Positions 1,112 to 59,013 of a stretch of DNA of 64,000 nt are shown here, piece by piece; the stretch's first letter is position 1, and each line of letters opens with the position of its first letter. A program made the translations under genes and the position numbers. The notes beneath the pieces are model-generated. The model was not told where the DNA came from. It did no database searches and saw only the letters and a program-made list of their open reading frames with translations. Source of the DNA: an uncultured Pseudomonadota bacterium (GTDB lineage Bacteria; Pseudomonadota; Gammaproteobacteria; CAJXQU01); contig CAJXQU010000001.1 of assembly GCA_913058255.1 (NCBI GenBank), forward strand, positions 248,001 to 312,000, written 5' to 3'.

Positions 1112-2824
1112 CTATCTGAGAATGGGCGTAGGATTTGAAACATGATTCTGCAAATAAGGTTGATACTGTTTCAAATCGCCGGTTAGGCTAGCATTTTTGA
1201 TCACGACAGGTCTTAGGAAGATGATCAGTTCAGATTTTTTGTTGGCAAAATCTCTTTGTTTGAAAGCATTTCCAACGCCAGCGAGATCACTTAGGCCAGG
1301 GACACCATCTGTGTTTCTAGAATAGTCATCTTGCATCAGGCCTCCAAGCACAGCGACCTGTCCACTATTTACTTTCAAGATGGATTCCATTTCACGAACA
1401 GCGATAACAGGAACCAGACTTTCAATACTAGAAATCGTGGTGCCGTTTGTTGAGGCTGCATTTGCTTGAGCAATGAGTATTTTCGGTGCCGGATCTGCAA
1501 CACGATCAACAACTCGAGATATTGTTGGACGCACATTTAGTGTAACGGCCATATTTTCATTAATTTGTGGTGTAACGGACATGACTAAACCGATTGGAAC
1601 GGTATGAACCTCAGACTCCACTGCGAGCAAGTTTTGTGCATTCGTACCCGAAGACTGGCTTATTTGAGCATCGATCGTGAAATAAACTTCATTTTTCACA
1701 ACTTTGAGAACAGCCGTTTGATTGTTCAATGTCATGAGCTTCGGACTAGACAGGACTTTCGTATCACCAAACGTTTTGAGTAGCTTTAGTGTTGTTCGAA
1801 AGTCGGGAGTCGTACCATTTTCGCTTTGAAGTGTTGCTTGAAAAAAGCTTGTAGCTAAACCTGTAGCACTGGGCAGTAATGTCTGGTTTAGTTGCAGAAT
1901 ATCATTGCCTCCAACTAGGGCACTCCAGTCGATACCAGACTGAAAGCGATCACTGAGAGTCACTTCAACAATCGTCGCTTCGATCAAAACCTGACGTTGA
2001 GCATTACGTAGGACTTTATCAATAAAGTTTTGTAGGTCTAGATGTTGAGACGAAGTAGCTTTTACATTAACGATACCCGTTTCAGGATTCATGATGACGG
2101 ATTTTGAGCCTATAACGCTGCTATCACCAGAGCTTGTAATTTCTTCACCGATGATCCCTCCAATATTACGAGCTAGCGTGCTCCAAAAGCGATTGAGTGA
2201 CTTGCTCTTTATCGCGGTGGTAGAATTATTACCGCCTCCGTTAGAACTACCTCCGGTAGAGGTTACGTCGACGGTTCCTGTTTGTGCTATCTGTGTGGAG
2301 ATACTTATTGAGCTTTCCATTTCTCTGGAAATATTGACGTAATCTATTTTATAAGTACGAAAGTAAGGATCGTCTGGAGAAATATAGAGATTATTGTCTT
2401 TTAGTTCATAACGAAGTTTAGCTTGTCGAGAAATACGTTCTAGAATTTGTGGCAAGGTTTGTTCGACGGCATTCAAAGTGACATATCCATCAATGTCAGA
2501 ATCAACATCGACGTTTAAAGACGCATCTCTAGCGAGAGCAAATAACAATTCTTTTACAGGAACATCATTGACAACAACGGTATATCGCTCTAACTCTTGT
2601 TCCGATGGCTGTGGTAAAGGAGGGGGTAAAAATGCTTTCTGCTGGACAATATTAGGAATGTCCTTATCAGATGAAGCCTTAGCAGTTTGTTCATCAACAG
2701 AAATATGACCCTCAGAAGGTTGGTGCGGTACAGGGATTGTTGAGGCACATCCACCAAGAAACATCGCAAGAAACATCGACGACAGTGCGTGTTTTGCTGT
2801 TTCCCCACTCAAAACCATGTTCAT
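1112..2824 (-). CDS. mshL: MSHA-type pilus secretin MshL (lipoprotein)
   Basis: Outer-membrane secretin of an MSHA-type (type IVa-like) pilus system, about 570 aa. I start it at the ATG at 2824, preceded by AGGGGAG, rather than an upstream GTG at 2863. This gives a lipoprotein signal with lipobox LGGC (Cys26). A secretin/TonB short N-terminal domain spans about residues 75-175, followed by a Gly/Ser/Asn-rich linker near 195-215. The secretin core fills the C-terminal half, with the typical run VPVIAVREMES, then VLGGLMQDD, then a terminal LIIFLRP strand. It lies between mshM and the mshN-like gene on the same strand. The window holds a second secretin, PilQ. The order here (M before L) is reversed relative to the Vibrio MSHA locus. 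Confidence 0.88.
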   Translation of the reverse strand: MNMVLSGETAKHALSSMFLAMFLGGCASTIPVPHQPSEGHISVDEQTAKASSDKDIPNIVQQKAFLPPPLPQPSEQELERYTVVVNDVPVKELLFALARDASLNVDVDSDIDGYVTLNAVEQTLPQILERISRQAKLRYELKDNNLYISPDDPYFRTYKIDYVNISREMESSISISTQIAQTGTVDVTSTGGSSNGGGNNSTTAIKSKSLNRFWSTLARNIGGIIGEEITSSGDSSVIGSKSVIMNPETGIVNVKATSSQHLDLQNFIDKVLRNAQRQVLIEATIVEVTLSDRFQSGIDWSALVGGNDILQLNQTLLPSATGLATSFFQATLQSENGTTPDFRTTLKLLKTFGDTKVLSSPKLMTLNNQTAVLKVVKNEVYFTIDAQISQSSGTNAQNLLAVESEVHTVPIGLVMSVTPQINENMAVTLNVRPTISRVVDRVADPAPKILIAQANAASTNGTTISSIESLVPVIAVREMESILKVNSGQVAVLGGLMQDDYSRNTDGVPGLSDLAGVGNAFKQRDFANKKSELIIFLRPVVIKNASLTGDLKQYQPYLQNHVSNPTPILR

Positions 2825-2932
2825 TTTGTATGACACTCCCCTATAGAAAGAGAAAGATACCACATTTTTTAACAGTAATAGAGATTTAGTTCACAAATTT
2901 TTGCAAGTTTGGACTTGTAAGAGCTAAAAAAA

Positions 2933-4006
2933 TTAATCTGGAATCGATGTACCTTGATCAAGATTTCCCCAAGCCGGAATTTCTTTGTTTTCCTGACGTT
3001 GTTGAAATGCATCATTTTTAAGGTCTTTAGAGTGTTCTGGTTGAATAAGAGCTTCTTGTTTAGTCACAGGTTTATTATTCTTAACCGTCAAACTGTAACC
3101 TGCTTTAAACCACCAGCCTGCGGCGGCTGCGCCGATGAGAGTAAGCAGTATAAGGCTAGGTATGAGTGGCGAGTTCTTGCCTTTTTTATTTGGCATTTCT
3201 GCAAAGTCACTATCATCAATAGCAACTCTTGCATGTTTTGGTGTGATGATTCTAGCGTTGTCGGCGAAGGCTGCGAGACAGGCTTTATCAGCAATAATAT
3301 TGATCCTACGTAATAAGCCTTTGGAGTGTTTCCAAACAACCTTGATAGCCTTTGGGTTAAAGAGGTCCATCCCTTGGTAACCACTGGTGCGCATCCGAGT
3401 GTTGATATAGTCACGGACTTCATATTCTTGCAAGGGAGCAAGGTTAAAACTATAGGTGATGCGTTCTTTTAGTTGACGAATTTGCTGCTGAGATAAGTTT
3501 TCATCCAGCTCTGGTTGACCGAATAAGACGATCTGTAAAAGCTTTTCTTGCTCTGTTTCTAAGTTACTTAGCAGACGCATTTCTTCCAATGTAGGGATGG
3601 GCATGCTCTGCGCCTCTTCGACGAACATGACAACACGTCGCCCTTTGGAATGTTGCTCGACAAGATAATCTTGGATCTTATGCATGACTTTTAAGTGAGG
3701 ATCGTCGGGCTCAACATCAAGCCCCATCTCAAAGCCGATGGCATGCAGCACATTGTCAGGTGTCAGGCTCGGGTTTGCTAGATAAACAACCTCGACATCA
3801 TCAGGCAAGCCATTTTCGAGCATTCGACATAACATTGTCTTACCACTGCCAACTTCACCGACAACTTTAGTGATGCCTTCACCGTTTGTAACGGCGTAGA
3901 TTAAAGCTTGTAAAACAGCACCTCGATTTGCTCCTGGGAAAAAGAGTTTCGTGTCAGGTGTTATTTTGAAAGGTGCTTGCTGGAGCCCAAAATAATTTTT
4001 ATACAT
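2933..4006 (-). CDS. mshM: ExeA/MshM-type AAA ATPase
   Basis: Inner-membrane-anchored AAA ATPase of the ExeA/GspA/MshM family, 357 aa, expected to help assemble or place the secretin MshL. Walker A is GEVGSGKT (residues 50-57). Walker B reads VVMFVEEAQ, with Glu-Glu (130-131) where the family usually has Asp-Glu. A membrane segment at about 280-300 is followed by only some 55 outside residues, with no recognisable peptidoglycan-binding domain. The start overlaps the end of the upstream regulator gene's Shine-Dalgarno region: AAAGGA lies in the regulator's stop region, 8 nt separate the genes, and translational coupling is likely. The first 60 residues align without gaps to the ankyrin ATPase at 60662, so the two are paralogues. 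Confidence 0.88.
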   Translation of the reverse strand: MYKNYFGLQQAPFKITPDTKLFFPGANRGAVLQALIYAVTNGEGITKVVGEVGSGKTMLCRMLENGLPDDVEVVYLANPSLTPDNVLHAIGFEMGLDVEPDDPHLKVMHKIQDYLVEQHSKGRRVVMFVEEAQSMPIPTLEEMRLLSNLETEQEKLLQIVLFGQPELDENLSQQQIRQLKERITYSFNLAPLQEYEVRDYINTRMRTSGYQGMDLFNPKAIKVVWKHSKGLLRRINIIADKACLAAFADNARIITPKHARVAIDDSDFAEMPNKKGKNSPLIPSLILLTLIGAAAAGWWFKAGYSLTVKNNKPVTKQEALIQPEHSKDLKNDAFQQRQENKEIPAWGNLDQGTSIPD

Positions 4007-4014
4007 ATAATCCT

Positions 4015-5466
4015 TTATTTCTCTGGTGCAACTTCAATGTTCAAGCGTTGGATCTTACTGTACAGCGTTGTGCGATTGATTCCTAACATACGTGCGGCAC
4101 GGCTCAAGTTACCACTGCTATTTTTTAGAGCGACGGTTATGTAGCGATTTTCCCAACTATCTAGTTTTTCATCTAATCGAAAGTTGTGTGTGTGTAGAAG
4201 CTCGCGCTCAGCTAGTCGGTCGAGATCATTGTGATCTGATTCAGGAATATAAACGGCTAATTCCAATTCTGCCTCTACTTGACTAAGTTTTACGGTGGTA
4301 TTGGGATATTTGGAACCCAAGCGGATCACAATATTTCTTAGCTCCCTAATATTACCGGGGAAGGCGTAATGCAATAGTCTTTGCTCGGCTTCATTTTCAA
4401 GCGTGAAAGGTTCGAATGTTCCTGCGTAGAGCTGCTGGAAGTAATTGAGTAGCAATAAACAATCTTCCCCTCTTTCTCGAAGCGGAGGAACCTTGATGGT
4501 GAGTACACCAAGCCGGTGGTAAAGGTCTTGGCGGAAAGCACCTTTACGGACAGTCTCCGGAAGGTCTCGGTTAGTCGCGGCAACAATCCGAGCATTGGAA
4601 TGGCGAGGCTGAGTTTCACCTATTCGGTAGTATTCACCATTTTCAAGCACGCGTAGTAATTTGGCTTGAAGTTCCAATGGTAACTCACCAACCTCATCGA
4701 GAAACAAGGTGCCTTTGTCAGCTTGCTCAAAGAATCCAGGTTTCGCTGAATCGGCACCAGTGAAGGCGCCTTTCGCATGCCCAAACAATTGAGCTTCGAG
4801 CAGCTCAGCTGGGAATGCGGCACAATTTATCGTTAATAAGGGCTGATTAACTCGTGTACTTTCATTGTGTAAATAATCAACGACCAACTCTTTACCACTA
4901 CCTGATTCACCCTCAATAAGTACCGGGAAAGGTGTATCAGCGAATTGCTTGATTAAACCACGTAATGTCTCGATTGCAGGACTATGACCGATGATTCCGG
5001 GCTTATCATTTTGCGGTACAGCGGCACTTTCTTGCTCGGCGTCAAGCAACATTAACTGATGCTGTAAGCGTGTTTTAAGTAGGTGCACATCACAAGGCTT
5101 AGGAACAAAATCAATCGCGCCAAGTGTCATGGCATGTTGAATATTGTCTCGCTTACTCTGACCTGAAAGAACCAAGATCTTCATGGCAGGATTGAAAGCG
5201 ACTAGCTCGGTTATTAAGTTAAAACCTTCTTCTGGTGTGTGAGGTGTCGGAGGGAGCCCCAGGTCAACCAATGCTAAGAAGGGCGGATCAACTAATCTTT
5301 GTAGTAGAACCTTCGCTTCTTCACGGGTACTAGCGGTTAGTACATCGAAAGATTCTTGTAACACAAAGCTAAGTGACTCAACAATCAGATGATCGTCATC
5401 TATTAAGAGTAGTCGAGGTTTTGCTATCACCTCTGATCCGGTCAGAATACTTGAGTTTGTTGCCAT
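4015..5466 (-). CDS. Sigma-54-dependent response regulator (PrsR/NtrC-like)
   Basis: NtrC-family transcription activator, about 483 aa. The receiver domain (about 17-135) has the acidic cluster IDDD, phosphoacceptor Asp68 in ALVDLGLP and the PKP lysine. The AAA+ domain has Walker A GESGSGKE, the sigma-54 contact loop GAFTGA and Walker B LFLDEVGE. A Fis-type helix-turn-helix closes the protein (SRAARMLGINRTTLYSKI). I choose the ATG at 5466 because GGGAG lies directly upstream; a TTG at 5505 would add 13 residues but lacks a good ribosome site. The receiver insertion after DLGLPP resembles the PrsR group of regulators. No histidine kinase is visible, so it is an orphan here. It leads the mshM-mshL-mshN-like operon and is a natural candidate regulator of it or of other pilus genes. 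Confidence 0.85.
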   Translation of the reverse strand: MATNSSILTGSEVIAKPRLLLIDDDHLIVESLSFVLQESFDVLTASTREEAKVLLQRLVDPPFLALVDLGLPPTPHTPEEGFNLITELVAFNPAMKILVLSGQSKRDNIQHAMTLGAIDFVPKPCDVHLLKTRLQHQLMLLDAEQESAAVPQNDKPGIIGHSPAIETLRGLIKQFADTPFPVLIEGESGSGKELVVDYLHNESTRVNQPLLTINCAAFPAELLEAQLFGHAKGAFTGADSAKPGFFEQADKGTLFLDEVGELPLELQAKLLRVLENGEYYRIGETQPRHSNARIVAATNRDLPETVRKGAFRQDLYHRLGVLTIKVPPLRERGEDCLLLLNYFQQLYAGTFEPFTLENEAEQRLLHYAFPGNIRELRNIVIRLGSKYPNTTVKLSQVEAELELAVYIPESDHNDLDRLAERELLHTHNFRLDEKLDSWENRYITVALKNSSGNLSRAARMLGINRTTLYSKIQRLNIEVAPEK

Positions 5467-5474
5467 GCGTCTCC

Positions 5475-5499
5475 CAGGCTCTTTAGTCGAAGGAGCCTG
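5475..5499 (-). promoter_or_regulatory. Inverted repeat next to the regulator's ribosome site
   Basis: Perfect 7-bp arms CAGGCTC / GAGCCTG around an 11-nt loop. On the minus-strand transcript the hairpin ends at the base where the GGGAG ribosome site of the regulator begins, 8 nt before its ATG. No T-tract follows, so it does not look like a terminator for metF. A translational control hairpin or protein site is plausible but unproven. Confidence 0.4.
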
Positions 5500-5529
5500 A
5501 GACAAGTATATTCAATCTGTTCTTTGTTG

Positions 5530-6375
5530 TCAGGTTGAAGAGAGGCTCAGGTTTTCCCAAACTTGTTCAATTGCATCAGATTGATTCATCGTATAGAAGT
5601 GTAAGCCTGGCGCTCCTTTTTCGAGCAACTGTCGAGATAGTTCAGTCGCGATTTCGACACCAAATTTCTTGATCGAAACGCGATCATCTCCATAATCTCT
5701 TAAACGGTAGACGATCCATCGTGGGATTTCTGCGCCACAACCTTCAGAAAAACGCATGAGCTGGGTGTAGTTAATGATCGGCATAATACCTGGAATAATC
5801 GGCACGTCGATGCCTGCTTTTTGCGCTTCGTCCACAAATCTAAAGTAAGCATCAACATTGTAAAAATATTGAGTTAGTGCGCCGTTCGCACCTGCATCGA
5901 TCTTGCGCTTGAAGTTAGCGAGATCATTTTTTGCTGTTTGTGCTTGAGGATGTATTTCCGGATAAGCCGCAACTTCGATATGGAAGTAATCTCCTGTCTC
6001 TTCACGGATTAACTCGACCAGCTCGTTAGCATAGCGAAGCTCACCATAAGAGCCTAAGCCAGAAGGAAGATCGCCACGTAAGGCAACAATTTCGCGGATA
6101 CCAGCATCTTTGTATTTTCGCAAAATTGAACGTATATCATCGCGACTAAAACCAATACAAGATAAATGAGGCGCGGCCGGCAAGCCCGTTTTTTCACGGA
6201 TCCGCATAACGGTTTCGAAGGTTTTGTCTTGTGTAGAACCACCCGCACCAAAGGTAACCGAAAAATAACGAGGTTTTAACGCTCCGAGTTTGTCTAGAAC
6301 GCTATCCATTTTAATTTCTGACTCAGGTGTTCTAGTAGGGAAAAATTCGAAGCTATAAGTTTTTTTTTCTTGCAT
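5530..6375 (-). CDS. metF: 5,10-methylenetetrahydrofolate reductase
   Basis: Flavoprotein that reduces 5,10-methylene-THF to 5-methyl-THF, the methyl donor for homocysteine methylation. It is 281 aa, close to the 296 aa of the E. coli enzyme. The N-terminus has the EFFP motif, followed by VTFGAGGST and the conserved ALRGDLP, PEIHPQA and QYFYNVDAY segments of the TIM-barrel active site. It is the last gene of metK-ahcY-metF on the minus strand, but a strong hairpin separates it from ahcY, so it may be partly or wholly transcribed alone. The ribosome site before the ATG is weak. Confidence 0.95.
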   Translation of the reverse strand: MQEKKTYSFEFFPTRTPESEIKMDSVLDKLGALKPRYFSVTFGAGGSTQDKTFETVMRIREKTGLPAAPHLSCIGFSRDDIRSILRKYKDAGIREIVALRGDLPSGLGSYGELRYANELVELIREETGDYFHIEVAAYPEIHPQAQTAKNDLANFKRKIDAGANGALTQYFYNVDAYFRFVDEAQKAGIDVPIIPGIMPIINYTQLMRFSEGCGAEIPRWIVYRLRDYGDDRVSIKKFGVEIATELSRQLLEKGAPGLHFYTMNQSDAIEQVWENLSLSST

Positions 6376-23958: not shown

Positions 23959-26313
23959 TTAAAACAACTGCTCAGGTTCACCAGTTTCCGATCCACCTGT
24001 CTCGGGGTCGTTGCTGGCTGCAGTTTGAGTAGGTGCATGTTCTTTTCTGAAAGTTTCCAGATAAGCATTCTCTTGCCCGGGACTAGCGAGTAAACCTGAC
24101 TGTTTATCAACTCTTGTTGTTATGATCCCGGAGGGAGTGATGGGGAACGCCTCGGGAGTTCCTTCCAAGGCAACGCGCATATAGTCTATCCACATTGGAA
24201 GTGCTGCTCGGCCACCGCTTTCAGAAGAGCCTAACGGTCGAATTTGATCAAAGCCAACCCATGTAGTTGTTACGATATTGGCGTTGAAACCGGAGAACCA
24301 TGCATCCTTTTGATCATTTGTGGTTCCTGTTTTACCAGAGAGATCGGGCCTTTTTAGAACTAAAGCACGAGTGGCGGTGCCTGCCCGGATAACATCTCTC
24401 ATCATTGAGGCAATAATATAAACATTTCGAGGATCAACCACTTTTTTAGCGACGCCTTCAAGAGAGCTTCCTTCGCTAGGATCACACTCACGGCAGACGC
24501 GATCAGGCTTAGCTTGAAAGATGACCGTTCCGTCTGAAGTTTCGATACGATCAATGAAGTAGGGTGTCGTTAAATAGCCACCGTTGGCCAGCACGGTGTA
24601 AGCTCTGGCGAGCTCTAACGGAGAAACAGCGCCACTGCCTAGCGATAAAGAAAGATCTCTGGGTAGGCGTTCTGCATCAAAACCGAACTTGGAGATGTAG
24701 TTAATTGCATTGCTAACTCCAACGGATCGTAATAAGCGAATAGAGATCAAATTTCTAGAATAGGTCAAAGCCGAACGCAATCTAGTTGGGCCTCGATACT
24801 TGCCACTGTAGTTTTCAGGTCGCCACGTGTCTTCCAAACCAGGGTCATCAAATACAACAGGAGCATCGTTAATAAGACTGGCCGCTGTGTAACCTTTGTC
24901 TAAAGCGGCAGAGTAAATAAAGGGTTTAAAACTAGATCCGGGTTGTCGTTGCGCCTGTACGACACGGTTAAACTTGCTGTGGTTAAAGGCGAAGCCGCCT
25001 GAGAGTGCCAGAATTGAACCATCTTCAGGTGAAAGTGATACTAATGCGCCTTCTACAGCGGGTAGTTGCGCCAATTGTAAACCTGCATCGCTCTCCATGA
25101 CACGAATTAGATCTCCCGTTTGGAATAGTTCCATCGCTGACTTTGGTTTAGCTTCACGACGATCTTCGTCAATATATCGACGCGCCCACTCCATTCCTGT
25201 CCATTCGAGTGTAGTAAGGCCTCCATTTTTTAAATAAATTTCAGCAGACTTTTCAGAGACACTGATAACCAATGCCGGTTGTAGGCCTCCAAGCGCAGGA
25301 TACCCTTCCAGCATCTGAGTCCAATCGTCTTCTCCGGCCCCTTGTTCTAGTTCGTAGTGATGCTCTGCACCTCTATATCCATGGCGTTTATCATAATCAA
25401 CCAAAGCTTTTCGTAACGCATTATCTGCAGCAGTTTGTAATCGATCTTGTATCGTCGTATAAACTTTAAATCCTGAGGTATATGCTTCATCGCTATACTT
25501 TTCGACCATGTAGCTGCGAACCATTTCTGCTACATACGGCGAGCTTGTGTCAGGTATTCTGTGATGAATTTTGGCTGTAACAGGGGCTTCTTTTGCGAGT
25601 TTATATTCGTCATCAGTGATATTTCCTAGCTCTAGCATACGCCGAAGCACGTAGTTTCGTCTTCTCAAAGCTCTTTGCGGATTGGTGATGGGATTCATTT
25701 TAGAAGGTGCTTTTGGGAGTCCCGCCATCATAGCGGTTTGTGGCAAGGTTAACGCTGCAAGGGGAGAGCCGTAGTACAGCTCTGAAGCGGCAACTATGCC
25801 ATAGGCGCGATGGCCTAAATATATTTTGTTGAAATAGAGTTCTAAAATTGTTTCTTTGTCGTAATCACGTTCAATTTTTAGGGCTAATAAGATCTCATTT
25901 AACTTACGAGTATAGGTTTTTTCATTTGATAAGAAAAAGTTTCGAGCAACCTGCATCGTGATAGTACTACCGCCTTGAGCTCGTTCTCCAGTTTGAACTA
26001 ACAGCATGACAGCACGTGCAATACCTTGCCAATCAACGCCAGGGTGTTCAAAAAAGCGATCATCTTCAGAGGCTAAAAATGCATCGATCATAACCTCTGG
26101 AACTTCTTCGTACTTCACTGGCAGACGCCGTTTCTCTCCAAACTCTGATATTAGTAAGCCATCTTTAGTATAGACGTGTAGCGGTACAGAAAACTTAACA
26201 TCTTGTAGAGAATCTGTGTCAGGAAGCCCTGGAAGTAGGTAATAGACCCCGCCAGCAATAATAACTATCCCGAGTAACAGCATGAAGAATATAGCGTTAA
26301 TAATAAATCTCAT
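23959..26313 (-). CDS. mrcA: Penicillin-binding protein 1A
   Basis: Bifunctional class A peptidoglycan synthase, 784 aa. An N-terminal membrane anchor (about 6-28) is followed by a GT51 glycosyltransferase with EDDRFFEHPGVDW and GGSTITMQVARN. An OB-like insert lies near 320-400. The transpeptidase has the serine motif SSFK, then an SRN-type motif (YSRNLIS) and KTGTTND. In gammaproteobacteria mrcA usually stands divergent from pilMNOPQ, as it does here. It leads a minus-strand run to priA. Confidence 0.96.
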   Translation of the reverse strand: MRFIINAIFFMLLLGIVIIAGGVYYLLPGLPDTDSLQDVKFSVPLHVYTKDGLLISEFGEKRRLPVKYEEVPEVMIDAFLASEDDRFFEHPGVDWQGIARAVMLLVQTGERAQGGSTITMQVARNFFLSNEKTYTRKLNEILLALKIERDYDKETILELYFNKIYLGHRAYGIVAASELYYGSPLAALTLPQTAMMAGLPKAPSKMNPITNPQRALRRRNYVLRRMLELGNITDDEYKLAKEAPVTAKIHHRIPDTSSPYVAEMVRSYMVEKYSDEAYTSGFKVYTTIQDRLQTAADNALRKALVDYDKRHGYRGAEHHYELEQGAGEDDWTQMLEGYPALGGLQPALVISVSEKSAEIYLKNGGLTTLEWTGMEWARRYIDEDRREAKPKSAMELFQTGDLIRVMESDAGLQLAQLPAVEGALVSLSPEDGSILALSGGFAFNHSKFNRVVQAQRQPGSSFKPFIYSAALDKGYTAASLINDAPVVFDDPGLEDTWRPENYSGKYRGPTRLRSALTYSRNLISIRLLRSVGVSNAINYISKFGFDAERLPRDLSLSLGSGAVSPLELARAYTVLANGGYLTTPYFIDRIETSDGTVIFQAKPDRVCRECDPSEGSSLEGVAKKVVDPRNVYIIASMMRDVIRAGTATRALVLKRPDLSGKTGTTNDQKDAWFSGFNANIVTTTWVGFDQIRPLGSSESGGRAALPMWIDYMRVALEGTPEAFPITPSGIITTRVDKQSGLLASPGQENAYLETFRKEHAPTQTAASNDPETGGSETGEPEQLF

Positions 26314-26348: not shown

Positions 26349-26365
26349 TTGGCCAGCATGTTGCA
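26349..26365 (+). promoter_or_regulatory. Candidate sigma-54 promoter facing pilM
   Basis: TTGGCCAGCATGTTGCA has GG and GC separated by 10 nt and matches about 13 of the 13 to 15 informative positions apart from the two after TTGGC (consensus TTGGCACG-N4-TTGCW). It reads towards pilM, but would leave a leader of about 235 nt. The window encodes a sigma-54 activator at 4015-5466. A chance match is possible. Confidence 0.4.
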
Positions 26366-26403
26366 TTGATATCCATGAATGTAAAAAGTGAGAACTTGTT
26401 AGT

Positions 26404-26436
26404 CAGGAATACTACAGGAATATTACAGGAATATTT
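26404..26436 (+). repeat. Three tandem 11-bp repeats upstream of pilM
   Basis: CAGGAATACTA, CAGGAATATTA and CAGGAATATTT follow each other without a gap. A related inverted copy (ATATCCTGT) lies at about 26447-26455. The period is close to one helical turn. They sit in the 297-bp divergent region between mrcA (minus) and pilM (plus), which otherwise holds no gene. They look like an array of protein-binding sites; no regulator is identified. Confidence 0.6.
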
Positions 26437-26574
26437 AATCCAACCGATATCCTGTTAACGCTCTGACTAAAGTTCTCTCAATTAATTGAATTATTTGATT
26501 CAGATTTTTTTAAATAGAAGTTTGATTTTTGAATGACTATAACAGCATAGATTTTTGATGCTTGCTGGTCATAA

Positions 26575-27674
<1,100 letters not shown>

Positions 27675-27675
<1 letters not shown>

Positions 27676-28244
27676 TGTCTACTATTAACTTATTACCTTG
27701 GCGCGAAGAGCGTCGCGCGGCGAAGAAGAAACAGTTTCTATCAGTATTAGGATTAACCGCTGTATTAGCCATTGGTACTTTTGGCCTTGTTCATATGTAT
27801 TTTGACAAGTTGATAGAAAATCAAAGTAGTCGTAATGCCTATATTGAATCTGAAATTAAAGCCCTTGATAGCAAGATTGAGCAAATAAAAGAGCTAGAAA
27901 AAGAGAAAAGCAGTCTCATCGCTAGAATGCGAGCTATTGAAACATTACAAACAAGTCGACCTTTGGTGGTTCATTTGTTTGATGAGCTGGTTACTACGAT
28001 GCCTGAAGGGATTTACCTAGATGAAATTGTTCAAAAAGATGAAGTGTTAACGATCACTGGATCGGCGCAATCAAATGCGCGCGTTTCTAATTTTATGCGA
28101 AACCTAGAGTCGTCAGAGTGGCTGACAGGTGCGACTTTGGAAGTTATCGAATACAAGGATAAAAAAGCCGATCGTAGTAATGCATTTACTTTGAAGGTTA
28201 ATCAAATTCCTATTCAGGTGGAAGAAGGAGACGAGGGGGTTTAA
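27675..28244 (+). CDS. pilN: Type IV pilus assembly protein PilN
   Basis: 189 aa. The N-terminus has the conserved INLLPWREERR that inserts into PilM. One membrane segment (about 22-42), a coiled coil (about 55-95) and a small ferredoxin-like periplasmic domain follow. The start overlaps the pilM stop by one base (TAATG), which indicates translational coupling. Confidence 0.94.
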
Positions 28245-28246
28245 TC

Positions 28247-28867
28247 ATGAACATGGATGATATAAATAATCTGGATTTTGAAGATGTTGGCGGGTGGCCG
28301 ACACCGTTCAAAATAATTGCCGGAGTATTACTTTTTAGCTTAATTGTTGTTGGCGGTTGGTATTTTGACCACAAGCATCAACAAGAAGAATTAGGGCTTG
28401 TGCAAGCAAAAGAACAAGAATTGAAAACAGCATTTGAATTTAAACAAAAAAAGGCCGCCAATCTTGAAGGATTACTAGCCCAGTTGGAGGAAATTAAGCT
28501 TTCCTTTGGTGATTTGTTAAAACGCCTTCCGGATAGAACTGAGGTTGCAGGCCTGTTAGTCGATATTTCTCAACAAGGATTAGGTTCTGGTCTTGAATTT
28601 GAATTGTTTAAGCCAGGTAGAGAATTCACCTCGGATTTTTATGTCGAGTTACCGATTCAAATTCGTGTAACTGGCGACTATCACTCCTTTGGACAGTTTA
28701 TTAGCGGTGTTGCTGATCTGCCACGGATAGTGACTCAACACAATATTAGAATTTATAAAGATAAGCCGAATGATCAGAAATCTGAGCCGAAATTGATTAT
28801 GGAGTCTATTGCGAAAACTTATCGTTACATGGATGAGTTTGAAGAAGAGGAGGTCGCAGCGAAATGA
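28247..28867 (+). CDS. pilO: Type IV pilus assembly protein PilO
   Basis: 206 aa. A short cytoplasmic N-terminus, one membrane segment (about 25-44), a coiled coil (about 48-90) and a periplasmic domain with ISQQGLGSGLEFELF and the family's ELPIQIRVTGDYH segment. It pairs with PilN in the alignment complex between the inner membrane and PilQ. It starts 2 nt after pilN and overlaps pilP by 4 bp. Confidence 0.94.
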   Translation: MNMDDINNLDFEDVGGWPTPFKIIAGVLLFSLIVVGGWYFDHKHQQEELGLVQAKEQELKTAFEFKQKKAANLEGLLAQLEEIKLSFGDLLKRLPDRTEVAGLLVDISQQGLGSGLEFELFKPGREFTSDFYVELPIQIRVTGDYHSFGQFISGVADLPRIVTQHNIRIYKDKPNDQKSEPKLIMESIAKTYRYMDEFEEEEVAAK

Positions 28868-29409
28868 ACACAAAACTCGTATTCATTCTTGGATCAAGCA
28901 TGCTCTTAGGAGGTTGTCTCTCTGATGATATGACTAGCCTGCGAGCTTATGCTGACGAGATCAAAGAACGCAAAGGTGGAATCATTGAGCCTCTACCTGA
29001 AATTAAACCGGTAGAGCGCTACCTCTACCAATCAGTTGATCGACGAGATCCTTTTTCTGCAAATTATCGTGATGACGATCAGCCTTCAAGTGTTGTGATC
29101 GATTCTGAACAACAACGAGCTTTATTACGTGAAGTTCGAGAGCGTAATAAGGAAGAGTTGGAACACTTTGAGTTAGATGGTCTTCGCATGGTTGGCACCT
29201 TAGAACTTGCTAGTGCCTTGTGGGGAATTGTTCAAGATCCTGATGGCACTATTTATCGGGTCAAGCAAGGGAATTATTTGGGTAGAAACTACGGGAAAAT
29301 TCTGGCTATTTCCGAAGAGAAAATCGAACTGAGAGAAATCGTCAAGGATATGCAGGGCGCTTGGGAAGAAAGACAAGCATTTATCGCATTATCAGACGAT
29401 GAAGCATGA
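28864..29409 (+). CDS. pilP: Type IV pilus lipoprotein PilP
   Basis: 181 aa lipoprotein that connects PilNO to the secretin PilQ. The signal peptide ends in lipobox LGGC (Cys18). The YQSVDRRDPF motif and the small beta-domain (DGLRMVGTLE, IVQDPDGTIYRVKQGNYLG) are typical. It overlaps pilO by 4 bp (ATGA). Confidence 0.94.
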   Translation: MNTKLVFILGSSMLLGGCLSDDMTSLRAYADEIKERKGGIIEPLPEIKPVERYLYQSVDRRDPFSANYRDDDQPSSVVIDSEQQRALLREVRERNKEELEHFELDGLRMVGTLELASALWGIVQDPDGTIYRVKQGNYLGRNYGKILAISEEKIELREIVKDMQGAWEERQAFIALSDDEA

Positions 29410-29434
29410 CAGAATGTCTAGAGGGACAAAACAA

Positions 29435-31606
29435 ATGAACACTGAATTATCGCAAGAATTGCATACTATTAACGGTCGGCAGAAAGCTGAACATAGGAAA
29501 GCATCAAAATTGAAACGTCTAGCGGGAGCCTTTGTCTTGCTGCAAATGCTGGCAACACCTGCTGTATTTGCAGAGCCATCGTTAAAGAGTATGGGATATG
29601 TTTCCTTGCCGAGCGAACGTGTGCAAATTCGTATGGACTTCTCTGAAGCTTTGAAGAAAGACCCGCTTAGTTTTACGATTGATAACCCTTCAAGAATAGC
29701 ATTAGATTTTCCTGGTGTTGGAATGGCGCTCAAGGATAAGACGCAATCAATTGGTATTGGCGCAGCCCATAGTCTTACCGCAGTAGAGGCTAATGGCCGA
29801 ACTCGAGTGGTGCTCAATCTTGTGCAGATGGTTCCTTATGAACTAAAAGTAACGGGCAACACCGTTATTTTGACGCTAGACAGCGCGGGCTCAAAAGGTG
29901 TTCCAGTGCCAGTTCCTGCTGTTGGTAAAGCAGCTGATGCTGGTAATAAGTCTCAAGCATCGTCAAAAACAGTAGCGATGAAAGGACCGCATATTACTAA
30001 TGTTGATTTTCGTCGAGGTTCAAAAGGTGAAGGACGTGTCATCATTTCATTGTCTGACTCATCAATTAACCCAAATATTCGGGAAGAAGGTGGGAAGATT
30101 AAGATCGATTTTAAAGGTGCGACATTACCAAAAAATCTTGATCGAAAATTAGATGTACTTGATTTCGCAACACCGATTAAGGAAGTGGATACATTTTCTC
30201 ACGGAAGCGGCACAAGAATGGTCATTTCGCCGCAAGGTCATTATGAGCATATGGCTTATCAGTCAGATGACAAATTAACAATTGAAGTGAAGCCTGTAAC
30301 TAAAGCTGAAAAGGAAGAGTTAAAGAAAGCTAAGTTTGGGTATACGGGAGAGAAGCTTTCGCTTAACTTCCAAGATATTGAAGTACGGGCTGTCTTACAG
30401 TTAATCGCAGATTTCACAGGGCTCAACATGGTTGCAAGTGACACTGTCGGTGGCACTGTTACTTTACGTTTGAAAAATGTTCCTTGGGATCAAGCGTTGG
30501 ATATTATCTTGAAGGCTAAAGGGTTAGCCATGCGTAAAAATGGCAATGTCATCATGGTCGCCCCCTCTGAAGAAATTGCTGCTCGTGAAAAACTTGAACT
30601 AGAATCACAAATGCAGTTAGAAGAGCTTGCACCTTTGTACACAGAGTTTTTACAGGTTAATTATGCAAAAGCTGCAGACATAGCATCTTTGTTAAAAGAT
30701 GAATCGAATAACCTATTGTCAGAACGTGGCAACATTACTTTGGACGAAAGAACAAATACACTTTTGGTTCAAGATACAGCGCAAAAGCTAGAAGAAATGC
30801 GTAAAGTTATTGTCACTTTGGATATTCCCGTGCGCCAAGTTTTGATCGAATCACGGATAGTGATTGCGGATGAAGACTTTGCTAAAGATTTGGGTGTGCA
30901 GTTTGGTTTGAGTGTTAATTCTCTAGCTAGGGATAACAATCGCGGTATCGCTATCGGTGGTAAGCAATCAGGTGATGTTGCTGGAACCACAACGTCTTTC
31001 CATCAAGATGATGTCGAAGACTTTCTGGTTAACTTGCCTATTACTGCAGCAAATGCAGGCTCAATTGGTTTAGCGCTAGGTAAAATTGGTAGCCATTTAT
31101 TACAGCTTGAACTGTCAGCGCTGCAAACAGAAGGTCGTGGTGAAGTGGTTTCAAGCCCGAGGGTGATTACGGCTAATCAGAAAGAAGCTGTGATCGAGCA
31201 AGGTACAGAAATCCCTTACCGAGAATCAAGTTCAAGCGGTGCGGCTACGATATCTTTCAAGAAGGCTGTTTTAAGCTTGAGAGTGACACCGCAAATAACA
31301 CCGGATGATCGTATTATTATGGACCTTGCGGTGAATAAAGATTCTGTTGGCCAAGTTTTCCAAGGCATTCCAAGTATCGACACCAAGAAAGTTCAAACGC
31401 AAGTGCTTGTAGAAAATGGTGAAACGGTTGTCTTGGGTGGTGTTTTCGAACAAACGAAGAGAAATGATGTTGCCCGTATTCCTTTTTTCAGTGATATTCC
31501 ATACATGGGTTGGATGTTTAGAAATACCCATGCAGAGAATAGTAAGCAAGAATTGCTAATCTTCGTCACTCCAAAAATTCTACAAGATACTTTAACTGTG
31601 CGTTAA
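29435..31606 (+). CDS. pilQ: Type IV pilus secretin PilQ
   Basis: Outer-membrane secretin through which the type IV pilus passes, 723 aa. I choose the ATG at 29435, preceded by GAGGGA, rather than an open start at 29399. The N-terminus then has a long basic signal peptide with cleavage near AVFA-EP (residue 46). Two AMIN domains (about 50-140 and 180-290) probably bind peptidoglycan. A secretin/TonB N-domain and a NolW-like domain follow, then the secretin core with VLIESRIVIA, VVSSPRVITAN, IEQGTEIPY and the terminal ELLIFVTPKIL. Last gene of pilMNOPQ. Confidence 0.95.
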   Translation: MNTELSQELHTINGRQKAEHRKASKLKRLAGAFVLLQMLATPAVFAEPSLKSMGYVSLPSERVQIRMDFSEALKKDPLSFTIDNPSRIALDFPGVGMALKDKTQSIGIGAAHSLTAVEANGRTRVVLNLVQMVPYELKVTGNTVILTLDSAGSKGVPVPVPAVGKAADAGNKSQASSKTVAMKGPHITNVDFRRGSKGEGRVIISLSDSSINPNIREEGGKIKIDFKGATLPKNLDRKLDVLDFATPIKEVDTFSHGSGTRMVISPQGHYEHMAYQSDDKLTIEVKPVTKAEKEELKKAKFGYTGEKLSLNFQDIEVRAVLQLIADFTGLNMVASDTVGGTVTLRLKNVPWDQALDIILKAKGLAMRKNGNVIMVAPSEEIAAREKLELESQMQLEELAPLYTEFLQVNYAKAADIASLLKDESNNLLSERGNITLDERTNTLLVQDTAQKLEEMRKVIVTLDIPVRQVLIESRIVIADEDFAKDLGVQFGLSVNSLARDNNRGIAIGGKQSGDVAGTTTSFHQDDVEDFLVNLPITAANAGSIGLALGKIGSHLLQLELSALQTEGRGEVVSSPRVITANQKEAVIEQGTEIPYRESSSSGAATISFKKAVLSLRVTPQITPDDRIIMDLAVNKDSVGQVFQGIPSIDTKKVQTQVLVENGETVVLGGVFEQTKRNDVARIPFFSDIPYMGWMFRNTHAENSKQELLIFVTPKILQDTLTVR

Positions 31607-58245: not shown

Positions 58246-58920
58246 TTATTGCTTAGCAGCACTTAATTCAGACCGCATTTTGTCTATGGTGTTTTTATAA
58301 CTATCGCTACCGAAAATGGCTGATCCCGCAACAAAGGTATCGGCTCCTGCTTTAGCTATTTCTTGGATGTTCTCGACTTTGACGCCACCATCAATTTCCA
58401 GACGAATATCGCGACCACTGGCATCGATGAGCGCGCGAGCTTCACGTAACTTGTCTAATGCCGACGGGATAAATGTTTGTCCACCGAAGCCAGGGTTTAC
58501 CGACATAAGCAAGACCATGTCAACCTTATCGATGACATATTTAAGACAATCTAACGGTGTCGCAGGGTTAAAAACTAAGCCTGATTTACAACCAGAATCC
58601 TTGATTAGCTGTAAAGAACGGTCAATGTGATTACTCGCTTCAGGATGAAAGGTGATATAACTCGCGCCTGCTTTGGCAAATTCTCCAATCATTCGATCAA
58701 CAGGACTTACCATCAAGTGGATGTCTATAGGAGCAGTAATCCCATAATCTCTTAATGCCTGACAGATCACCGGGCCAAAGGTTAAGTTTGGAACAAAATG
58801 GTTATCCATGACATCAAAATGCACAAAATCAGCCCCGGCGTCGAGTACATCACGGACATCTTCGCCTAAGCGTGCAAAGTTCGCAGACAAAATCGAAGGA
58901 GCAATTATGAAATCTGACAT
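58246..58920 (-). CDS. rpe: Ribulose-5-phosphate 3-epimerase
   Basis: Interconverts ribulose-5-phosphate and xylulose-5-phosphate. 224 aa TIM barrel with [44 protein letters not shown] and [11 protein letters not shown]. First gene of the minus-strand rpe-gph-trpEGDC run. Its product feeds both transketolase and the phosphoribulokinase encoded elsewhere in the window. Confidence 0.96.
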
Positions 58921-59013
58921 AGCGGGTTATTCTGTGAAATAAAGAGTGCAATTTTACCTGATCGGCAAGCTAATTGCAGCAATATTGCCACTGTTTATTA
59001 ATTGAAAAATGCT

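Follow-up and report, generated by a model that had tools for sequence, protein, structure and literature searches.

A conserved sigma-54-type element facing pilMNOPQ, with parallel sites at other type IV pilus genes, in a genus of uncultured Gammaproteobacteria

The type IV pilus operon pilMNOPQ is preceded, in all three genomes of the genus studied here, by a sigma-54-like (-24/-12) element, and similar sites lie before pilA, pilB and pilT. Judging from sequence comparison, we consider it likely that this element, TGGCCAGCATGTTGCA, functions as a sigma-54 promoter of pilMNOPQ, that it has joined and probably replaced a sigma-70 promoter, that it is one of a set on pilus genes, and that the 11-bp repeats near it are a local duplication. 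A preliminary description of the window, by which we mean the whole 64,000-nucleotide stretch analysed, had pointed out both the element and the repeats. Its sigma-54 half is well supported and reaches wider than was seen at the time, while its repeat half is real but probably ordinary.

The element lies between mrcA (23959-26313, minus strand, from the open reading frame list) and pilM (26611-27675, plus strand; TIGR01175, E 1.6e-118), the first gene of pilMNOPQ. The open reading frames that follow on the plus strand (27675-31606) are presumably pilN, pilO, pilP and pilQ, judging by gene order. As first described, TTGGC-N7-TTGCA was confirmed at 26349-26365 on the plus strand, and its GG-N10-GC core TGGCCAGCATGTTGCA (26350-26365) is oriented toward the pilM ATG at 26611 and matches TGGCACGNNNNTTGCW at 10 of the 12 specified positions. 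In the usual sigma-54 geometry some 12 nt separate the -12 element from the transcription start, which is accordingly predicted at 26376 (plus strand), about 12 nt past the GC. We infer that pilMNOPQ is transcribed from this element, and its leader would be about 235 nt long. The match alone is weak evidence against chance: the genome of the window (G000) has 19 occurrences of TGGCNNGNNNNTTGC and 13 of the reversed pattern. In the other two genomes of the genus the corresponding counts are 51 and 20 (G001) and 27 and 11 (G002). The case for a sigma-54 promoter at pilM rests on conservation and context rather than on the motif match.

PilM is 89% identical in G001 and 94% identical in G002, and at the equivalent position, about 36 nt from the mrcA start, these genomes carry TGGCCTGAATATTGCG and TGGCCTGGATGTTGCC, respectively. 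Across the three genus genomes, which share descent, 12 of the 16 motif columns are identical compared with 66/299 other columns of the gap (Fisher p 2e-5), and a repeat alignment gave 12/16 compared with 74/295 (p 7e-5). The best-conserved 16-column windows of the mrcA-pilM gap overlap the element, and the remaining gap has diverged. The preliminary description had named absence from close relatives as a ground for rejecting its proposal, and the element is present in both congeners. The core of the G001 pilM site, TGGCCTGAATATTGC, also recurs exactly at another place in that genome (L190, C37:93141), and a gene encoding a membrane signalling protein starts 22 nt downstream of it.

The preliminary description had advised a search of the genome for other sigma-54 sites. 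Such sites lie before pilA, pilB and pilT, and together with the two congeners they support the sigma-54 input to pilM proposed at the outset. Gene identities were assigned by profile (PilB TIGR02538, PilT TIGR01420, PilM TIGR01175, PilA PF00114 and PilS PF25323). At pilB, sites lie 178-206 nt upstream in all three genus genomes (TGGAACGATCCTTGCT, TGGAACAATTATTGCT and TGGAATGATACTTGCT), and the element is a conservation peak, with 12/16 identical columns against 33/200 (p 2e-6). Sense matches were present at 3 of 26 outgroup pilB loci, positioned elsewhere, against 2 for the reversed control (26 of 27 loci were counted, L280 being left out for a short flank and the wrong upstream stretch). The pilT sites are intergenic and correctly oriented in 3/3 genus genomes, with 166, 122 and 114 nt between them and the start; the column-conservation test gave p 0.04 and then 0.53 on a repeat alignment, with the motif misplaced by the aligner both times and in register in one separate alignment only. 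Both of the genomes read at pilA have sites (TGGCACACAACCTGCA and TGGCACGCAATCTGCA). The pilB and pilA sites are finds by region, since both fall outside the first strict pattern. On the minus strand of L255 (12490-15835), pilT is followed by two more PilT/PilU-type ATPase genes in a row, a layout matched in G001 and G002.

Thirteen stretches with a total of 16,677 nt of non-coding DNA contained 16 sites scoring at least 9, compared with 3 for the reversed motif. The sample is biased, because pilus and activator genes guided the choice of stretches and sites were already known in four of these (the window, L255, L260 and L271). Genes expected to be under sigma-54 also carry sites, including glnL, fliL (in two genomes) and a sensor-kinase gene flanked by two activator genes on C2, which we take to be the flagellar-type FleS. 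A further site precedes a gene of G002 that is, by its sequence, presumably glnA. Several other sites were encountered. In two of the three genus genomes, a PilM_2-family gene (PF11104), presumably MshI-like, has a sigma-54-like site upstream, at distances of 25 and 34 nt (L125 on C15 of G000 and L152 on C3 of G001). Within the window, two overlapping, opposed sites occupy 58963-58990, between a DUF3530 hydrolase gene (59002, plus strand) and a gene at 58246-58920 (minus strand). The site TGGCAATAACTTTGCA precedes a second GspE/PilB-family operon in G001 (L259 5809, C29), and no sigma-54-like site was found in the counterpart region of G000 (L258).

The mrcA-pilM gap is comparable across the class because a divergent mrcA precedes pilM at 77 of the 78 loci with enough upstream sequence (80 loci less L077 and L082, whose upstream sequence is short). 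Outside the genus, a sense sigma-54 match scoring at least 9 within 450 nt of pilM was present at 4/78 loci, all positioned differently from the genus element, and class-wide sigma-54 control of pilM was rejected. A second outgroup set, which overlaps the first in species and was counted separately, had such matches within 600 nt at 3 of 26 loci (L011, L027 and L031, at -306, -82 and -434), one of the 27 loci, L013, being misoriented and left out. Several of the nearer outgroups have instead a TTGTYT-17-CTATAGT-like element at -76 to -92 from pilM. The CTATAGT-like element is present at 7 of the 9 loci L034 to L042, a strict CTATANT box lies at -76 to -92 in 14/76 outgroup loci, and CTATANT occurs anywhere within 250 nt in 19/76 compared with 2/76 for the reversed control. 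This sigma-70-like box is a prediction, absent or unrecognised in most outgroup loci. In register with it, G000 has CTATAAC (26537-26543, plus strand), which has no -35 and does not end in the T expected of a -10 box; the aligned sequence is TACATT in G001, and the stretch is deleted in G002. A promoter scan of the G000 region found no sigma-70-like site facing pilM. We infer that an older sigma-70 promoter, of which CTATAAC is presumably the remnant, decayed after a sigma-54 takeover. In the genus the sigma-54 promoter would have joined, and probably replaced, the sigma-70-type promoter of the outgroups.

The rpoN gene (PF04552, E about 1e-69) is present in all three genus genomes, and G000 encodes ten strong sigma-54 activators (PF00158, E 5e-42 or better). 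One of them is in the window, as had been reported for an msh operon; it lies at 4015-5505 on the minus strand, in an msh-like operon beside an XrtA-type ATPase and an MshL-like secretin, and is one candidate pilM activator among the ten. The operon of activator, XrtA/PEP-CTERM-type ATPase and MshL-like secretin spans 1112-5505 (minus strand), and a GspE-family ATPase gene lies immediately left of the window. Elsewhere, pilS, pilR and pilA are together in G000 and pilR is directly before pilA in G001; a search of the G002 draft at E 1e-100 gave no PilR. The protein between PilS and PilA has receiver-AAA-Fis domains, and we take it to be PilR from this position and the domains.

A sigma-54 activator site usually lies about 80-200 bp upstream, and the corresponding zone of the pilM element falls inside mrcA; RpoN-polymerase bound at 26350-26365 would likely be opened by an activator looping from within that gene. 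At pilA, in both genomes read, a perfect 17-bp dyad, GTGAC-N7-GTCAC, is found 155 and 146 nt upstream of the sigma-54-like elements (upstream regions L261 7837-8240 and L269 about 5875-6090), and it is a natural candidate for a PilR site. The dyad was found at none of nine upstream regions of pilM, pilB and pilT with up to 2 mismatches. TGT-N11-AGA, the hallmark of P. aeruginosa-type PilR sites quoted in the accessible text of PMC6058289, was found at 0 of 11 promoters, pilA included. Gibbs sampling up- and downstream of pilM, pilB and pilT gave no convincing common site, the best motifs being coding-DNA or low-information matches with scores only modestly above two shuffles each. As neither the dyad, the hallmark nor a convincing shared site was found at the machine genes, either PilR would use weaker sites there or a second activator would serve them.

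It is quite possible, if short of probable, that pilM, pilB and pilT answer to such a second activator, whether FleQ/FlrA-like, the msh-operon regulator at 4015-5505 or some other member of the ten, and that PilR acts separately at pilA. The number of strong activators in G000 leaves ample candidates, fliL and the flagellar-type kinase gene have the same promoter class, and the pilA-type dyad is confined to pilA among the four pilus promoters, but the search up- and downstream of the three machine genes gave no common site for such a protein. More tentative is the proposal that PilR itself activates the four pilus promoters directly, in an expanded PilR regulon. The neighbourhood of pilS, pilR and pilA is in keeping with it, and PMC6058289, in its accessible part, cites in-silico PilR/sigma-54 sites before type IV pilus genes of Geobacter; the dyad missing at the machine genes and the hallmark missing at all 11 promoters argue against it.

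Between the predicted start and pilM, three gapless 11-bp repeats, CAGGAATA(C/T)T(A/T), were confirmed at 26404-26436 on the plus strand, beginning 38 bases past the element as had been stated (26404-26414 CAGGAATACTA, 26415-26425 CAGGAATATTA and 26426-26436 CAGGAATATTT). Tandem Repeats Finder (TRF) reports 2.9 copies, and the repeats are not due to chance because period-11 matches number 20/22 compared with a maximum of 16 in 60 length-matched first-order Markov sequences. The inverted copy said to follow them is there in part: TATCCTG stands at 26448-26454, but it is imperfect, one base short of TATTCCTG. The repeats overlap a leader block, ATACTACAGNAA...CGATANCCT (26409-26453, strand unspecified), which is found in all three genus genomes, once in each and at pilM only, with 0 matches for a reversed control. 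The block is 45 nt long in G000 and 34 nt in G001 and G002, and the 11-nt excess, equal to one repeat unit, suggests that a unit was duplicated in tandem in the line leading to G000. The triple repeat is probably a local tandem duplication inside this conserved leader block.

The block might instead belong to the promoter of mrcA on the opposite strand, since the sole sigma-70-like site found in the scan, TTAACA-N17-AATATT (26458-26430, minus strand), lies inside it. We think this unlikely, as the site has 9/12 matches, one such site was found where 2.2 were expected in shuffles, and the TTAACA and AATATT hexamers are not kept in G001 and G002.

It is less likely still that the sigma-54-like element is itself a chance match kept by shared descent, with pilM transcribed from an ordinary promoter. 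The motif count in G000 is near its control and the genus is small, but the element is the conservation peak of a diverged gap, it recurs at pilB, pilT and pilA, and the scan gave pilM no sigma-70-like alternative.

An activator array is expected upstream of a start, and the repeats sit downstream, at about +28 to +60 relative to that predicted for transcription. The binding-site array of the preliminary description is not supported by the comparison with relatives or by the search for further arrays: repeat number and spacing are not kept, the array being present in one of the three genus genomes (G000), and no second 11-bp array was found anywhere in the G000 genome. With a single array and a conserved block confined to pilM, the repeats were also rejected as a genome-wide regulatory motif. 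The CsrA/RsmA-type core is A-N-GGA, and CsrA-like sites were rejected in the absence of this core from the repeats. A possible long stem-loop enclosing the repeats in the pilM leader RNA (26389-26480, plus strand) is predicted with confidence in G000 only; predicted folding gave z -2.9 for the whole G000 leader and, for the first 120 nt, z -3.4 in G000, +0.2 in G001 and -1.6 in G002. A conserved leader hairpin was rejected because RNAalifold supports just a 5-bp stem, no Rfam family matched the pilM leader at E 1, and we make no claim for an RNA element there. We consider it very improbable that the repeats serve as an operator array, or that their three GGA motifs in the pilM leader are targets of an RNA-binding protein of the CsrA/RsmA type: the repeats are non-random, spaced near one helical turn, with GGA in each unit and a strong stem predicted in G000, but CAGGAAT has one copy in G002 and none in G001, and the core, an Rfam match, a second array and a conserved stem are all missing.

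The pilus sites are best explained by a change, particular to this lineage, that placed the type IV pilus machine under sigma-54; the pilA, pilB, pilM and pilT transcription units would then share one promoter class. Such a set would make pilus assembly depend on RpoN and an ATP-driven enhancer-binding protein. Whether the whole machine (pilA, pilB, pilMNOPQ and pilT with the two pilT/pilU-type ATPase genes) was rewired from sigma-70 to sigma-54, so that assembly and retraction would be jointly silent until the activator fires, perhaps with the PilM_2-family (MshI-like) operon and flagellar genes, is a proposal for and against which we see equal weight. If it is true, separate conserved promoters on the basal-body operon, the assembly ATPase and the retraction ATPase would make the machine, beyond its subunit, a regulated commitment, and comparing the genus with its outgroups would allow the exchange of one promoter class for another to be traced on a conserved operon.

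That sigma-54 governs the pilin gene is textbook knowledge. Like the PilSR/sigma-54 system at the pilA promoter of Pseudomonas aeruginosa and Geobacter sulfurreducens, G000 has a pilus gene with a predicted sigma-54 promoter and pilS-pilR adjacent to pilA; the genus described here differs in also having conserved sites at the machine units pilB, pilM and pilT. Regulation of pilA, and to some extent of further pilus genes, by sigma-54 and PilR is described in the accessible portions of PMC6058289, PMC8657755, PMC2725144, PMC4371752, PMC8088505, PMC11957545, PMC10782981, PMC11870540, PMC7970052 and PMC13170364. According to the available text of PMC6058289, pilA was the only known PilR target prior to that work, and P. 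aeruginosa pilB is reported to depend on sigma-70, though loss of pilR reduced it. The pilMNO-related fcpMNO of Campylobacter is reported as RpoN-independent in the part of PMC11870540 that was accessible. A literature search outside which most subscription journals lay found no mapped sigma-54 promoter of pilM in the texts, partly accessible, that it covered. In Xanthomonas oryzae, control of pilus genes by RpoN2 and PilRX is not confined to the pilin, as pilAX and pilCX show, with no direct sites at pilM or pilT described in the accessible text (PMC8657755).

Sigma-54 control of type IV pili is already known, and what is new is its extent here and the apparent replacement of a promoter. Geobacter sulfurreducens is not a gammaproteobacterium. 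Its in-silico PilR/sigma-54 regulon likewise includes several type IV pilus genes with a predicted sigma-54 promoter upstream, as far as the accessible text of PMC6058289 goes. That lineage is distant, whereas the signal in the present genus consists of conservation among congeners and the apparent loss of the promoter of the outgroups.
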